Translations under genes and position numbers: made by a program
Shown: positions 7,804-54,050 of the stretch, one piece after another
How positions within the stretch are numbered: the first letter of the stretch is position 1
Layout of the letters: every line of letters begins with the position of its first letter
The notes under the pieces: generated by a model
Databases searched by the model: none
The model's input: only the letters and a program-made list of their open reading frames with translations
Told to the model about the DNA's origin: nothing
NCBI RefSeq assembly: GCF_004379335.1
Contig: NZ_CP038013.1
Location: 744,001-808,000 of the forward strand
Length of the DNA: 64,000 bases
Origin: Spiroplasma gladiatoris
GTDB taxonomy: Bacteria > Bacillota_I > Bacilli_A > Mycoplasmatales > Mycoplasmataceae
Direction of reading: 5' to 3'

Positions 7804-9926
7804 TTATTTAGTATTTACATTTAAACAATTAATCAGATTAAAGCAGTTATTTACAAAATCATTATCACTAATTTGAATATTCTTTTGTGTTTTAAATTTT
7901 ATAACTTTTTTTATTAAACTATTTAATGCCTCGTTGTCTAAATGTAATTCATAAATGTATTTATTTTTTAAGTTAAATAAACAAAATTTATAATCTCTAT
8001 ATATCTCATAATCTGAGTTATTATTGATAATAAAATTATAGGTCAAAAGTTGTAAGTAGTGCTCCATTTCTAACTTATCAACATATTTAAATTCTCATAC
8101 TACTTTTTTTCTATATCAATGCAGTCAATAAATCGACTCAATTCTAATGTATCAGATAAATATGATACGGGAACTTCAAATAAACAATTTTTGCTTAATA
8201 ATTTTTCAAATATTTTATTGGAAGCATATTTTTGTTCTTCACTAATTCAATTCATATCTTTAATTTGATTAATTCTATAAAACTTACCTTCATTTAATGC
8301 GTGTAAAAATACGACTAATTCTAGCAAATTTAATTTTTTATCATCATAAGATTTAATAATATTTTTAATCCTAGTTTTTTGTCTTTTTAATAATTTGATA
8401 ATATTATTTTCTTCTTTTTTAAGTTCAATTTGCTCATAAAGATCTTTAAAGTAGTTTATTATTTCTTTTATATAACCATTATCATTTTGAAAATATAGTG
8501 GGAAAAATATTCCATTAATTGAACTTACATTTTCTAAATATTGAATTTGTTTATCCTTTTTAATTTTTGTAAAATGTACTAAGTTATTTAAACCTTTAAT
8601 AGTATAATCACATTTTAGATTAGATATATTTTTTTTAATATTTGAAAAATCTTCTAATATATTAATTAAATTAAAATTATTAAATAAAGATGTGACATTT
8701 GTTATGATTTTTTCATTGTAGTTTTGAACTAATTGTTTATTAGTTATTTGTTTATTTAATTCAAGTCATAGATTTTTAAAATTTTCATCAACATTAAATT
8801 TTAAGTATGAATTGATTTTAGTTTTACTTAAAAAATTAGCTGCTTTATTCTTATAATGATTTATTATAATTGTTTGATGTGTAGCTCTTGATAAAGCAAC
8901 ATAATGTAGGTTAGTTGGTTTATTGCTGTCTTCATTTTTAGCAAAGTAATCAAAATAATCATTATTAAAATTAAATACGATTACAAGTTTTTTTTCTCTA
9001 CCTTTTGATTTATGAATTGTAGAGACAATTATTTTATTCTTAGATTCTTCTTTGTTAATTTCATTAGACTTAGAATTAGTCATATGAATTAAATGACCTT
9101 TATTTGATAAATATCCAATAAACTGATTTAATGGTGAACTTGGACTATTGTTCAAAGTATTTGATAAAATAAATATTTCATCATCTTTATAATTGGAAAT
9201 ATAATTAATTATTGAACTATAAAGTTTTTCTTGTTCGAATACATTACAAACTAAATAAACAAATGAGTCTTTAGATTTTTTTGTACTTTTAATAAAGTTT
9301 TTTTCTTTAAAGTAAACATCATTTAAAAATTTTGCATTTTGACTTGTAATTCTATAACTTGTTGAAAGTTTTTTTGTTACTCATTGTCTTTTATTTAAGT
9401 TAAATGTCAAGTTTGCAAAACTTAAATATCGATTATCCGATCCTTTATAACCATATATTGCTTGTCGTGAATCTCCTAATATAATTATTTGCGATTCTCT
9501 TAGTTTAAAATAAATTATTCTTATTAATATTTCATATAAAACTTTATCTAAGTCTTGTGCTTCATCTATTATAATACAATCATAATTTTCTATATTTCCT
9601 ACTAACTTATACTCATTATTTATAATTGAATTTAGTTTACTATCATTATTAATTTCTCCAACTTAATTATAGCAATGACCAAAAAAAGAATGAAAAGTGT
9701 ATGATTTAATATTTGTTAATCCTAGTTTTTCGATTTTATGATTATTATCTGATGATAAATCTTTATTAAAAGTTAAAAGTAAAAATTTCTTATTTAAACA
9801 ATTTTTTGCTAAATATAAACACGTTGTAGTCTTTCCACTCCCAGCAACTGCTTCTATTTTTAAGTTTTTACCTTCTTTTAAAGACTTTAAAATACTAACT
9901 TGTTCATCACTTGGTATAAAACTCAT
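7804..9926 (-). pseudogene. Superfamily I helicase-nuclease (UvrD-like), broken by a nonsense codon and a frameshift
   Basis: The ancestral product was about 707 residues. Helicase motifs appear in order: I (AGSGKTTT), II (IIDEAQDLD), III (ILGDSRQAIYGYKGSD), IV-like (LSTSYRIT), V (STIHKSKGREK) and VI (HYVALSRATH). A C-terminal piece reads WEFKYVDKLEMEHYLQLLTY, a RecB/PD-(D/E)XK-type nuclease signature. Two defects are visible. The first is an in-frame TAA at 9663-9665 that cuts the protein after 87 residues. The second is a run of seven T at 8104-8110 where one base is missing, shifting the frame before the nuclease motif. The rest of the frame is open, so decay is recent. Known relatives act in DNA repair or phage defence. 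The ATG at 9926 has a GGAG site. Confidence 0.82.
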
Positions 9927-47840: not shown

Positions 47841-49568
47841 TTATTTTTTATAAATGAAGCTTGTTAAAAAATATTCTAGAGTTGGATAAGCTACAATAAA
47901 TAATTTAATATTATTATCTAAAATTACTCTAGGTTCAACTTGCAATAAATCGTTAACAACAAGTACCATTGCGAAATTTGCATTTTTTGGTATTTTTAAT
48001 TGTTTTATAATTTTTTTATAATCATTAAGTATAATTGATAATTTTGGTTTGACAATTCTATCAATAATATTATTAAGTCCTTTATAAACTTGCAAACCAC
48101 ATTTATAAATATCATACGGTTCAGGAGATTGGTTAAAAAAATTATTTATAAAAAAATAACAAGTATTTATGTTTTTTTCATAAGCAATAGCATCAACATG
48201 ACTAATTGATGCTTTTGATTTTTTATTATTAGATTTAGGTTCGAATAAAGGAATGTCGTTTGGTTTATATAATTCAATTACAGAGAATCTTTTTTTAACA
48301 ACCTTTAATGTTTCATACATTAATTCATTAAGTTTTTTATTCATTTGTTGATTGAAATCAGATAAATAAGGTTCTTCAAAATTCATTCAATTTTTATGTG
48401 CATAAAAATTCATATAAATCATTTCAGCAAAACCTAATATAAATGAGGTTTTTCTAGAGTCTTTAAAATATAATAAACTTTTTTTATAAACACCATTTTG
48501 ATAAAAATCTTTATAAATATTTGATTTTTTAGTTTGATCATTAATATAAATCATTTTTTCAATAATAGTTTGAACAAATTCAAAACTAATTTTGTTATGA
48601 TATTTTTTTAATAAAGTGTCATAAATACCATTAATATAACTTTCATATTCATAAATATTATAGTATTCAAATGAAGACAAAATTATATTTACTATATCTA
48701 AATAATCATTTAAAGATAATTCTTTAGTAAAAGCAACAGAATTATAGATATTTTCACGATTATCAACAACACTTTGCTTTAACTCTTGATCCATTCAAAT
48801 GTTATAATCACTTATAAATTCTGTTTTTTTATAGTTTCTTAGTTCATCTGAACTTCTAAATAAATTACTAAAATCTAAAGGATTTAAAACATTATAATTA
48901 ACTTTTACAAAAGTTTCACTTTTTTGATCTAAATACAGATTGTAACTATTCATTTCTTTTGCTTGCATTGCATAACTTTGCATTCAAATAAGCATAAATA
49001 AGTCTTTATAAGCTTTTAAATCATATATTTTTTGATCAACAAAATTATCCATTTTAGAAAAATATAATAAGTGCTCAAAATCATTCTTAATTATTGCATA
49101 ACTTCATGAACTTAAAGACTCAAAAAATGTTCTTAAACTTTTTAAATATAGACGATAATTATATTTTTCTTCTCCAAATTTAAAGACTTTTAAATCAACA
49201 TTAAATTTACTACGATTAACAGTTGTTAATAATACAAATTCTTGAGCTAGTAGTCTTGAACCTAAATAAATCATTGAGCAAATAAAAGCATTTCCTGATT
49301 GAATCTTTTTTTGTTCACTTAGTTTAATAAAACCAGATTTTGCATCTCTTATATGTGAACTATAAAATGAAATTCTTTGAAATATTTTTTCTTCTAATTC
49401 ATAGTAAAATTCTTTAATTCTATACTCATTTTTTTTTAATAGATCAAACATTATTTTAATATCATTATTATCAATCCCAAAATAATCAAAATAGTTTAAT
49501 TGTGAATTATAATCATAAAAATTTCCTCTTCCAGAAAGTCTTTGATAATATCTTTTTGTTGAGTTCAT
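47841..49568 (-). CDS. Hypothetical protein, 575 residues
   Basis: The frame is open from 49568 to 47841 with TGA as Trp, including Trp-Met junctions that otherwise look like new starts. It has no signal peptide, no clear membrane helix, and a Tyr/Phe/Asn/Lys-rich composition with many short helices. The N-terminus reads MNSTKRYYQRLSGRGNFYDY; the C-terminus ends LTSFIYKK. I do not recognise a family. AGGTGG is 5 nt before the ATG. The second IS copy is inserted 82 bp upstream in the same orientation. A phage-portal-like or structural role can neither be supported nor excluded. Confidence 0.65.
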
Positions 49569-49619: not shown

Positions 49620-49650
49620 ATATTTATTTAAACTTTTTATTAAAAAATAC
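49620..49650. repeat. Left target-site duplication of IS copy 2 (31 bp)
   Basis: It is identical to 51130-51160 and is AT-rich, ending in AAAAAATAC. The next base also matches, so the edge is uncertain by 1 bp. Confidence 0.9.
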
Positions 49651-51129
49651 TGTCAATAACTAATTAATTTTTCCTAAAACTTTATTTTTTGAGTTTTTAT
49701 AAAAGATTCAATTAGTATACTTTCAAGGACTGCTTGTTTTTATTGGCTTATAAATTTTATTTATCTCAGCCGGGTTTTTATCTTCATACACCTCTTTATA
49801 AGTAGAATTTTGTAATACTTCTAATAAAGGCATTCATTCGCTATATGAGTTTGAATATAGTTTTCCGTCAAATGTCTCAACAACCATTATTTTTGTTTTA
49901 TTTTTATAAAAAACTGGTTCTCCATTTGAATGTGGAATATAGTACTTATTTTGGTATTTTATAGTTGAACCCTTATTTACGGTTCTTTCAAATCTTCTAG
50001 ATAAATAAAAATCTATATTTTTAGTTTCTTCAAAAAATCTAAAAGAATTAGTGATATTCTCTATTTGAAGGGAAAACTGTGAATTATATTTATCTATATA
50101 TTCATCTAAAAACGAATTAGCTTGGTTTATAGTTGATATATTATTTTCTTTAAGTTCCTTTGGTAGGCGATCTTGAAGTGTATTTCACAACCTTTCAATA
50201 CGGCCTTTAGTTTGTGGAACGCTAGATGTTGTTAATTTTATTCCTAAGTTGTGACACAAAAATCCGTATTGTGTTAAGGAGTCAGAATGTAGATCTGACT
50301 CCTTTTCTTTTGGACTTCAAAATACCGTTCTTTTGTCTGTCAATATTTCTTTAGGAATCCCATAGTTAAGAAAAACTTTCTTTGTGATATTGTAATAACC
50401 CATAAGAGTTTCTTCAGTGTCAAAATATAAAGCCAATATTTTGCCAGTAGCATCATCAATAAAACCATGTAGATATCATTTTTCTTCTTTAATTCAGTAA
50501 TGTACAGAAGCATCTGTTTGCAACCTTTCTCCAAACTCAGTTTTTCTATGTTGCATTGGATGACTATTTTCAATACTTAATAAAGTATTTAAATATTCTT
50601 TTTTTTCTATATTTTTTATATTTTGATTTTTTAAACTGTAAGCTATTTTTTGTTTAATTATTTTTTTAGTTACTTTATGTATTCTTGGAGAATACATGTT
50701 ATTTTCCTTTAATAAACTAAGTAAATATGTATACGAAACTTTTATATTATAATTTTCTAGCAACTTTTCTTGAAAGTGTTTGTAATTGTAGTCACAAAAT
50801 TCATCTTTATATAATTTAATTATTTTTTGACTAATATCACTGCTTATTCTTCTGCAAGACAATCTGCCAGTGTTCTTATGAATAAAAGCTATGTAACCAT
50901 TTTTTTTATATTTATTAATTAATATATTTACATTTCTAATTGTTTGACATAACTTTATAGAAGCTGACTCTTTTGTTATTTTTTGATCTATAACGTCTTT
51001 GATAATTTCCATTCTCTTTTTTTCATTCATATTTAAATATCTCCTCATTTTAAACCTCCCAATAAAATAATTATAGTTTGGGAAATTTTAATTTGTTATA
51101 TATAAGGAAAATATCATATGTTATTGACA
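49651..51129 (-). mobile_element. Insertion sequence, IS1202-type, copy 2
   Basis: The element is 1479 bp, the same length as copy 1, with the same terminal repeats (TGTCAATAAC and GTTATTGACA). I noticed four base differences from copy 1: a T/C near 49782, an A/G near 50112, an A/G near 50791 and a T/A near 51029. None breaks the transposase. It is inserted directly upstream of the promoter of a probable small RNA gene, and the duplication ends exactly where that -35 box begins. Confidence 0.9.
49660..51048 (-). CDS. IS1202-type DDE transposase, copy 2
   Basis: The product is 462 residues and the same as copy 1 except for about three substitutions (for example Lys to Asn at residue 6, MRRYLN). 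The helix-turn-helix N-terminus and the three catalytic acids (LQTDASVHYW, EILTDKRTVF, GRIERLW) are intact, as is the GGGAGG ribosome site. With intact ends and near identity between copies, this element is likely still active. It reads toward the 575-residue hypothetical gene. Confidence 0.9.
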
Positions 51130-51160
51130 ATATTTATTTAAACTTTTTATTAAAAAATAC
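51130..51160. repeat. Right target-site duplication of IS copy 2 (31 bp)
   Basis: It is a perfect copy of 49620-49650. It directly touches the TTGCAT -35 box at 51161. Confidence 0.88.
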
Positions 51161-51189
51161 TTGCATATTAAAATAATTAGTGATATATT
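51161..51189 (+). promoter_or_regulatory. Strong sigma-A-type promoter for a plus-strand small RNA
   Basis: TTGCAT (51161-51166), exactly 17 nt of spacer, then TATATT (51184-51189). No protein start with a ribosome site follows within the next 240 nt before a strong terminator. Transcription should begin near 51195-51198. Confidence 0.65.
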
Positions 51190-51195
51190 TATTTT

Positions 51196-51431
51196 GTCCT
51201 TTAGGGCACACTTATGGGGCAAATACTTTAATACATCACTTTCATTTAGTATTTGTTAAACAACATCCTTTCTTTCGACTCGACTTGTATCTCCGTCCAT
51301 AAGTGTATAGTTGATATAAGTCTTATTCATTACTCATTCATATCTTTTTAATTATTAGTAAATCAACATTTATATTATGTGAAAACATACTAAATAATAA
51401 AAAAAAGCGTTCTACTCAAACGCTTTTTTTT
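51196..51431 (+). ncRNA. Candidate orphan structured RNA (about 235 nt), family unknown
   Basis: This stretch holds no open frame with a start signal, yet it is less AT-rich than the surrounding gaps and strongly structured. ACACTTATGG (51208-51217) pairs perfectly with 51297-51306. Inside, CAAATACT (51220-51227) pairs with 51248-51255. The 40-nt segment 51256-51296 includes CGACTCGACTTG and TCTCCGTCC. Further hairpins are GTTGAT/ATCAAC (51310-51315, 51362-51367) and TATGT-GAAA-ACATA (51376-51389). A near-consensus promoter precedes it and a strong terminator ends it. I compared it mentally with tmRNA, SRP RNA, RNase P RNA, T-box and common riboswitches and found no match. 6S-like regulatory RNA is one possibility. 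Confidence 0.55.
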
Positions 51432-51432
51432 T
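51399..51432. terminator. Strong rho-independent terminator of the candidate RNA
   Basis: The stem AAAAAAGCGTT / AACGCTTTTTT has a 7-nt loop and nine T on the plus strand. It is one of the few G+C-containing hairpins in the region. Confidence 0.85.
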
Positions 51433-51451
51433 GCCAGAATTCAAAAAAAAT

Positions 51452-51487
51452 AAATTAAAAACCACTATTTAAAGTGGTTTTTAATTT
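51452..51487 (-). terminator. Rho-independent terminator after the 853-residue lipoprotein gene
   Basis: A 15-bp perfect stem (AAATTAAAAACCACT and its complement) has a 6-nt loop, directly after the stop codon at 51489. Its presence means the hairpin at 51399-51432 is not needed by this gene. Confidence 0.8.
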
Positions 51488-51488
51488 A

Positions 51489-54050
51489 TTAAAGTTTTGG
51501 TTTTTTGGAATTTTCATAAGCTTGTTGGTTAAAATCTTTATTTTTATCATTGTATCTTACTAAATTATCTCAGTATGATGAGATTTTTCCATCATCATTC
51601 ATATATATTTTTAAGTTAAATACAAAATCTGTTTTTTGAATTTTAGGATCTTCACCTTTTCATCAAGTTTTTTTATTTAAATTCTTATAATCTCCATAAA
51701 TTTCGCCATAGTTATTTAAAATTTTTGAGTTAAACTGAATGGTGATATTAGCGTTAACACTATTATTATTAAATCCACTTAAACCGTCACTATAAATCTT
51801 ATCATCAAAGTTTGATGCACCACTTCCAATGCTATTTACTAAAGTTGCATGGAAAGGAAGTTCTAAGTTATTATCTTTTAACCTTTTTAAATGTTCTGCA
51901 AATGCAATATCATCATCATTATGCTCTGAGATTTTATTAAAAATTGCTTTTTGAATAAAAGGGTCATCTGTTGCATTATAATGTTTCATAATTTTATTTC
52001 ATATATAATTTCCTTCGCTATCATAAAAATCTGAAGAAAGGTTATATGATCATAAATTCCTATTAATTATTTTATCTCTGGTTGTATCACTATTTTGCAA
52101 TTGATCGTTTAAACCAACTAATAAAATATTTTCAATTCTATTATCAATTTCATTTGTCATTATATTGTTTAGATGACGTATTCTTAAATTATCACCATTG
52201 TTGTCAACATTTTTATTTTTGTTAGTTAATAACTCTAAAAACTCAGATTCGCTATTTACATCACTTCCATCAGTTTTAACAAAAGGATCTACATAGAAAT
52301 TACCTTCATTTGATGTGTTTTTTGAATCAATTTCTTCTTGATTACTTAGAATAAAATGTTTTAACATAATTGATATCCTTGTATCAATAAATACATTCTT
52401 AAACCCAACATCGCTAATAAACTCATTATCATTGATTCAATTTGCAAATTCATTTATATTACTTGAAGGCATTTGTAAAAGTTTTTTTGTATCAGGGTCA
52501 TATCAATATTTGGCTAGTTGTTCAGTATCATTTAAATCTTCTTTAATAATTGATTTATAGAAGTAATTCATTCTAAATAACGAAGAAAAGTTTAGACCAA
52601 AATATTTTAAGTTAGATTCGCTTGATAAGACATTGTCTTTAAATGTTCAATCCTTAGGATCTTTGTTATTTTCAAAATCATCGAAATTAGTTGAAAAATT
52701 ATGCATAGTAAGTTTGAAGTCAGTTGAAGTGAAGTCTTTTTGCTCTCCACCTTCAGCTTTTAAATCTTTACTTGCTCAAAATACTTCATCCATTTTTTGA
52801 TCAATATCTTTTATTTCTTCGATTTTTACTAATTTATCACTATTTTTTTTACTAATATCATTGAAGTAATTTGCTAAATCTGTAAATTTATTTTTTGAAG
52901 CTTCTTCTGTTTGTTGTCTTGCAATTGATTTTGAGTTTGTTATTAATTGTTCAAAGAAGTAGTTTCACGCTCTTTCGCATTCAATTCTATCTTCATCTAA
53001 AATTTCTTCAAACCCTTCAAATTTATTGTTTCTTTTTATTAATTCAATAAATACAACAGAAAACACTTGATTTCTCATTCGATTATTAATATCAATTATA
53101 TTAGAAGATTCAGACAATATTATTGGTTTATCTTTTAAATTTTGAGAAACTTTATCTTCAATTTCTTGTTTTTTATCTTTTAAAATTTTATTAATTAACA
53201 AAGAATTAATTAAAGTATTATTTACAAAATCGCTAATTGAAGGAGAATAACCAATAATTGAAGCAGGTAAACTATTATCTTCTTTATCAAAGATATCTGC
53301 TAATCTAATTAGTTGTGAGCAATTTGTAAAACCTTGATAAATCGCTCCGCTGTTTTTTGTGTGTGGGTGAGTTGACGCTTTAATTGGTTCAATTGCTGTT
53401 GGTGTTTTTCCAGTTTCTGGATTAGTTCAAATTGCGCCTTTAGTAGATTCACTTTCATCAACACTTGCATCATAGTTAACTGCAATTTTTCGATTAATAT
53501 TAATTCTTGCAAAATAAGGAGCATCTAACGGGTTAACTCAACCTTCTAACTTATCATCTAAAAAGGTTACAGAAATTGATCATTCATCATTTTCTAATCA
53601 ACCAGCTGCATTTCTTCCAAATGCTTGCTTTTCGCTGCTTGCTTTTACTAAGTCCTTAACATTTCAACGAGATGATTGTCATTGCAATTTTGAGTTTAAT
53701 CAATCAAAACCAGGTACTTTTTGAGCAATTTGAGTTAATAGTTGATTTGACATTATGTATGTTCTGATACTTGAAGTCATAATACTTGCTGTAAGTTTAT
53801 TACCATATTTTATAGCATCATATAAGCCAAGTGCTTTTAACATCAATTCTGCTTTTTCAAAATCAACACCAGAACCAATTTTTACTCCATAATCTACTAG
53901 CTTTTGCGTATTTAAAACAGTTAAAGAAAGAATTTTTTGATTATCACTATAATCAAAAGTCATACCAGCTCCACCTTTACATGAAGTTGTTAATGAAACA
54001 AAACTTGTAGTTAGTAAAGAAGACATTAATAAACTTAATATTTTTTTCAA
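51489..54050 (-). CDS. Large lipoprotein of unknown function (853 residues)
   Basis: The start is taken as TTG at 54050, giving KKILSLLMSSLLTTSF after the initiator and a lipobox SLTTSC (Cys near residue 24), preceded by AGG at 11-13 nt. A GTG at 54059 would add three residues. The mature part reads KGGAGMTFDYSDNQKILSLT, WVNPLDAPYFARININRK and NCSQLIRLADIF, and has no known motif. Many TGA Trp occur. It resembles the large substrate-binding-type lipoproteins found in Spiroplasma and Mesoplasma, but I cannot name a family. It is a single gene, ending in its own terminator. Confidence 0.78.

Follow-up and report, generated by a model that had tools for sequence, protein, structure and literature searches.

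A conserved pseudoknotted RNA gene in Spiroplasma gladiatoris and its relatives carries a segment complementary to Shine-Dalgarno sequences

Introduction

Several small RNAs of low-G+C Gram-positive bacteria act through pyrimidine-rich sites. In Listeria monocytogenes, LhrC uses a CU-rich loop and CU-rich single-stranded sites to pair with Shine-Dalgarno (SD) sequences, and RsaE and FsrA are named among the RNAs that use a UCCC motif (PMC4132741).

In the Mollicutes, whose genomes are very small, few regulators are known, and comparative evidence backs few of the small RNAs. We describe here a locus in a 64-kb stretch of the Spiroplasma gladiatoris chromosome (hereafter the window), at about 51196-51432 on the plus strand, which is close to certain to be a free-standing non-coding RNA gene. 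Its predicted transcript is a folded RNA of about 235 nt that would have no protein product. We found no description of this RNA in a literature search, although such an absence is weak evidence.

Results

Extent, promoter and terminator of the RNA gene

A reading of the window made from its sequence only had proposed an orphan structured RNA with its own promoter and terminator. This proposal held up: the RNA is present in 20 of 20 genomes of the same genus, as a single copy among the same neighbours and with covarying stems. Its features are as follows.

51161-51189, plus strand: promoter, TTGCAT, 17 nt, TATATT; extended -10 TGATATATT at 51181-51189
51196-51207, plus strand: P1, 5'-terminal hairpin GUCC-UUUA-GGGC, kept in relatives
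51208-51217, plus strand: helix A, 5' arm ACACUUAUGG; in the RNAalifold consensus, with two-sided changes at every counted pair
51220-51255, plus strand: P3 hairpin, CAAAUACU/AGUAUUUG with loop UUAAUACAUCACUUUCAUUU, enclosing the first conserved loop
51262-51278, plus strand: segment 2, AACAUCCUUUCUUUCGA, unpaired in the predicted fold; near-invariant in the genus and complementary to SD sequences
51282-51291, plus strand: helix B, 5' arm GACUUGUAUC; minimum free energy (MFE) helix, covaries
51297-51306, plus strand: helix A, 3' arm CCAUAAGUGU, in the loop of helix B, giving a pseudoknot
51313-51322, plus strand: helix B, 3' arm GAUAUAAGUC; MFE helix, covaries
51328-51366, plus strand: segment 3, CAUUACUCAUUCAUAUCUUUUUAAUUAUUAGUAAAUCAA, 39 nt, unpaired in the predicted fold; near-invariant in 20 of 20 genomes
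51376-51389, plus strand: P5, small hairpin UAUGUGAAAACAUA; many relatives have UAUGCGAAAGCAUG in the alignment
51399-51432, plus strand: intrinsic terminator with nine T, bidirectional; its stem covaries in relatives

The promoter consists of a -35 TTGCAT (51161-51166), a 17-nt spacer and a -10 TATATT (51184-51189), as had been claimed, and the TG preceding the -10 makes it of the extended type. Because 5 kb contain 30 promoter-like matches where 35 are expected, such a match alone is little evidence; the weight of the evidence for this predicted promoter lies in its conservation among relatives, not in the consensus match itself. An oriented alignment of the relatives places a TGnTA-type -10 ahead of the GUCC hairpin. 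That hairpin, P1, has the form GUCC..GGAC in the majority of relatives and GUCCC..GGGGC in a homologue from another genus (g6, see below), and transcription probably starts at P1 or within a few nucleotides of it.

At the other end, the nine-T terminator is present (51399-51432). The neighbouring lipoprotein gene does have a separate terminator, as the sequence-only reading had it: a perfect 18-bp inverted repeat at 51449-51490, 17 nt past that of the RNA, serves the lipoprotein gene on the minus strand. The 40-nt segment singled out as unusually G+C-rich (51258-51297) contains 42.5% G+C, compared with 23.7% for the window, and at least 42.5% is reached by just 1.3% of 40-nt windows. The folding energy of 51190-51435 lies at z = -3.6 relative to dinucleotide shuffles.

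Directly upstream of the -35, which is left intact, lies an insertion sequence (49651-51129) whose terminal repeats are 10 bp long (TGTCAATAAC); its 462-aa transposase has a weak match to Pfam rve and 34% identity to enterococcal transposases annotated as ISNCY. The element is flanked by a direct repeat of 31-32 bp (49620-49651 and 51130-51161), its end has several further occurrences in the genome, and the sister genome G044 appears to be without it (distance difference 1510).

Two interleaved helices form a pseudoknot

A perfect 10-bp closing stem had been proposed from the sequence; it exists and is our helix A (51208-51217 with 51297-51306), but the fold was incomplete, since a second 10-bp helix, B (51282-51291 with 51313-51322), had been missed. 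Since the 3' arm of helix A lies between the two arms of helix B, the RNA is pseudoknotted. RNAalifold recovered helix A with covariation from 20 sequences, and helix B was recognised by inspecting the sequences one by one. Over the 17 pairs of both helices in 21 sequences, 92.3% of the cells are paired, a percentage favoured by our choice of arms and register, which relied on visual inspection and on the best pairing, and two-sided changes occur at 16 of the 17 pairs. The covariation score of the two helices together is 0.695, against 0.251 +- 0.023 for column-shuffled alignments (reached by none of 500) and at most 0.15 for slid versions. The two-sided changes, together with the RNAalifold helix A, whose arms were not hand-picked, are the safer evidence for the predicted fold. 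The pseudoknot is kept in the g6 homologue despite different stem sequences.

Within helix A, the 8-bp hairpin of the earlier reading was confirmed as P3 (51220-51227 with 51248-51255). Its loop, the first of the conserved loops, is hairpin-enclosed in most of the 20 genomes, by stems of unrelated sequence, and the loop motif is lost or altered in three of them (L024, L025, L027).

Conservation in the genus and beyond

Of 60 genomes of the family searched with blastn, 20 belong to the genus of the window, and all 20 gave matches. A sequence model built on the 3' half of the RNA and run against 320 genomes of the order found a single strong copy per genome in the same 20 (E <= 4e-18) and nothing credible elsewhere, with a next best score of 0.0018. 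When oriented and aligned, the copies of the genus display the near-invariant blocks ACATCACTTTC, AACATCCTTTCTTTCGA and CATTACTCATTCATATCTTTTTAATTATTAGCAAATCAA, with variable stretches between them and a terminator after them.

Single neighbours of the RNA have been replaced or lost, but the gene families around it remain the same. In many of the genomes that carry the RNA, the neighbouring protein F2 has either fallen to 25-30% identity or is lost or escapes detection, so the blocks of the RNA, near-invariant next to a protein so diverged or gone, must be under strong selection. F2 itself (47841-49568) is a very fast evolving protein of 575 aa with no Pfam match, present in 18 of the 60 family genomes and often divergent from the RNA gene. 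In several relatives a further gene is transcribed divergently to that of the RNA; it encodes an 81-85-aa zinc-ribbon-like protein with repeated CxxC pairs and no Pfam match over the cut-off, and lies about 150-490 nt upstream of segment 2, on the minus strand, in L080, L074, L076, L079, L082, L083 and L086.

This gene order also bears on whether the RNA could be a cis-acting element (a riboswitch, leader or 3' UTR) that belongs to a gene beside it. In having a conserved fold that ends in a terminator it does resemble a leader, but no plus-strand gene directly follows it: the next gene in the window is convergent and has its own terminator, the next gene in the relatives examined is convergent too, and the neighbours vary while the RNA stays. 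We therefore consider a cis-acting element very improbable.

Homologues of F2 are present in two other genera, g5 and g6. In g6 (G006, C75) a diverged copy of the RNA adjoins the F2 homologue, in the same place and on the expected strand. It has a helix A of GUCGUAAUAA/UUAUUACGAC and a helix B of AUUGUUUU/AAAACAAU around the 3' arm of A, and retains AACAUCCUUUCU, UUACUCAUUCAUAU, the GUCCC..GGGGC hairpin and the terminator. No copy was seen next to the F2 homologue in g5. With the exception of the g6 copy, which was found via synteny, the weak matches outside the genus fall mostly within coding sequence and were judged to be chance. A two-block pattern run on 317 genomes returned the 20 genomes of the genus, G006 and one further match, also judged chance, and a covariance model detected no credible copy in the family's other ten genera; G006 itself went into building that model, which accounts for its score. 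A lack of conservation in relatives, which would have refuted the earlier reading, was looked for, and the outcome favours that reading.

No known RNA family and no conserved reading frame

A search with Rfam 15 found no family at gathering score anywhere in the window, in agreement with the earlier claim that the RNA matches no known family, and a lax search of the locus gave just low-scoring A/T-rich or terminator-like matches far below the cut-off. Its size, its conservation throughout the genus and its single copy would fit a diverged housekeeping RNA (6S, tmRNA, SRP or RNase P RNA). Three of these identities are already refuted, the same genome having its tmRNA at 113421, its RNase P RNA at 345638 and its SRP RNA at 8372 (the tmRNA, G000 113421-113833, has a predicted 26-aa tag, ANKKSEKFEMPAFMINNASAGAMLMA, with the ARAGORN mark "not identified"). 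As for 6S RNA, a whole-genome search with the covariance model (RF00013) gave nothing at E <= 10, whereas the controls do score. The two RNAs are alike in length and in being encoded by a single conserved gene, but 6S is a closed rod, a long irregular hairpin with a central bubble that mimics an open promoter, and here helices A and B interleave and covary. The idea of a 6S-like RNA is accordingly not supported, and a diverged housekeeping RNA of any of the four kinds is highly unlikely. The accompanying suggestion of a new regulatory RNA stays the best reading, with the regulatory role itself proposed rather than demonstrated.

Equally unlikely is a small-protein mRNA or dual-function RNA. 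Frames of 40-50 codons occur in some copies, but they differ in length and frame, none is common to the 20 copies, and the best conserved blocks have no common start. No reading frame is conserved, which agrees with the absence of a supported one noted from the single sequence.

Segment 2 is complementary to Shine-Dalgarno sequences

Three segments, all unpaired in the predicted fold, are near-invariant in the genus: the P3 loop, segment 2 and segment 3. Within segment 2, AACAUCCUUUCU is complementary to the preferred SD, lies outside the covarying helices and is kept in g6; the fold predicts that the segment is exposed as a single strand. Segment 2 also shares UCCUUUCU (8 nt) with the last eight bases of the genome's 16S 3'-end motif GGAUCACCUCCUUUCU. 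We scanned the whole sequence of two genomes for targets, with gene starts called by a simple script. Immediately before the predicted starts in the two genomes, the complements of segment 2 are enriched 41-fold (AAGAAAGG) and 46-fold (AGAAAGGA), values somewhat inflated because start codons were picked partly by SD match. An exposed segment 2 can therefore pair with many SD sequences. Against translation-initiation regions, its ten best duplex energies are -16.0, compared with -14.5 +- 0.5 for shuffled segments. Part of this signal is generic, as any AGAAAGG-like SD would score.

Outside the locus, the genus contains six perfect 12-nt complements, five of which sit 17-24 nt before a start codon. 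The five genes, named by eye from their translations, are PTS permease-like, threonine dehydratase-like, two secreted-protein-like and one for a Cys-rich protein. A scan of orthologs in two genomes for conserved pairing with an mRNA did no better than shuffled segments. We rejected a single antisense target, as no 12-nt complement of segment 2 or 3 is common to all genomes of the genus. Regulation of the adjacent lipoprotein gene was also rejected, because the genome of the window alone has an AGAAAGGAU SD that pairs with the RNA.

Segment 3 and the P3 loop

Neither the P3 loop nor segment 3, whose UUACUCAUUCAUAU is kept in g6, has excess pairing with initiation regions. Pairing with rRNA, tRNA, tmRNA, RNase P or SRP RNA gave nothing convincing; the largest departure was that of segment 3b, which is A/U-rich, with tmRNA (-13.3 against -8.4 +- 1.8).

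Discussion

How the RNA may act

Selection on both the sequence and the fold of this RNA is near-certain. It occurs once per genome examined in the genus and also in a second genus, and has no Rfam entry.

The best explanation that we can offer, to which we give an even chance, is an RNA that acts in trans and, by anti-SD pairing, blocks the sites where ribosomes bind. In the predicted fold, a short hairpin stands at the 5' end, the long-range helix A interleaves with helix B to make the pseudoknot, P3 presents its conserved loop, and the terminator lies at the 3' end, with the near-invariant segments unpaired. The pseudoknot may serve as a scaffold on which the CU-rich segment 51262-51278 stays exposed, and the P3 loop (ACAUC-ACUUUC), similar to segment 2, is perhaps exposed likewise. 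These CU-rich sites would pair with the AGAAAGGAU-type SD regions of selected mRNAs and so block ribosome binding, a base-pairing step in trans that we infer. Segment 51328-51366 could be a further contact with mRNA or a binding site for a protein partner.

Because no target is shared across species and neither segment 3 nor the P3 loop gives a signal, we do not place anti-SD pairing higher, and the main rival is a protein-binding or ribonucleoprotein RNA, of housekeeping or sequestering type, which we regard as less probable yet deserving serious weight. Here a protein or the ribosome would recognise the pseudoknot and the invariant segments, mainly 51328-51366, and pairing with mRNA would not be the job of the RNA. 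The 39 nt of segment 3, near-invariant in 20 of 20 genomes and partly so in g6, exceed what an sRNA seed needs and, like the P3 loop, lack excess complementarity to initiation regions; convincing pairing with rRNA, RNase P RNA, SRP RNA or tRNAs is likewise absent, proteins could bind at the two similar CUUUC motifs, and the single copy per genome is kept though neighbours change. However, a protein site has no need of the exact anti-SD in segment 2, there is no known protein partner, and the absence of the RNA from the family's ten other genera means that it is not a universal housekeeping RNA.

A bolder reading, which we put forward tentatively and consider rather doubtful, is that of a new class of pseudoknotted RNA, core to the gene-expression machinery of this lineage, which would act on the ribosome or a protein and not on a few mRNAs. 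What the RNA would display on this reading, no less tentatively, is an anti-SD that matches part of the 16S tail exactly, and a second, invariant site of 39 nt. Whichever applies, an RNA this large, with strong conservation and a gene of its own, lends itself to direct tests of its role.

Comparison with known small RNAs

If anti-SD pairing is its mode of action, the RNA would resemble RsaE/RoxS, FsrA and similar C-rich sRNAs of the Firmicutes in pairing a pyrimidine-rich unpaired segment with the SD. Unlike them, it has no Rfam match and was found in two genera only; they also differ from it in motif, size and fold.

LhrC is closer. Both RNAs have redundant CU-rich motifs in a loop and in single strand, anti-SD complementarity, few G and a terminator of their own (PMC4132741). 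LhrC is present in five copies and uses a UCCC motif, whereas the RNA described here is single-copy and carries UCCUUUCU; it differs further in its pseudoknotted core and its second invariant segment of 39 nt, and the two have no relation in sequence or in Rfam. Two of the features by which an LhrC-like class would be recognised are nevertheless seen here, namely a free-standing, predicted transcript with its own promoter and terminator, and a pyrimidine-rich, SD-complementary segment whose exposure is predicted. LhrC is the closest working analogue of this RNA, in proposed mode of action rather than by descent.
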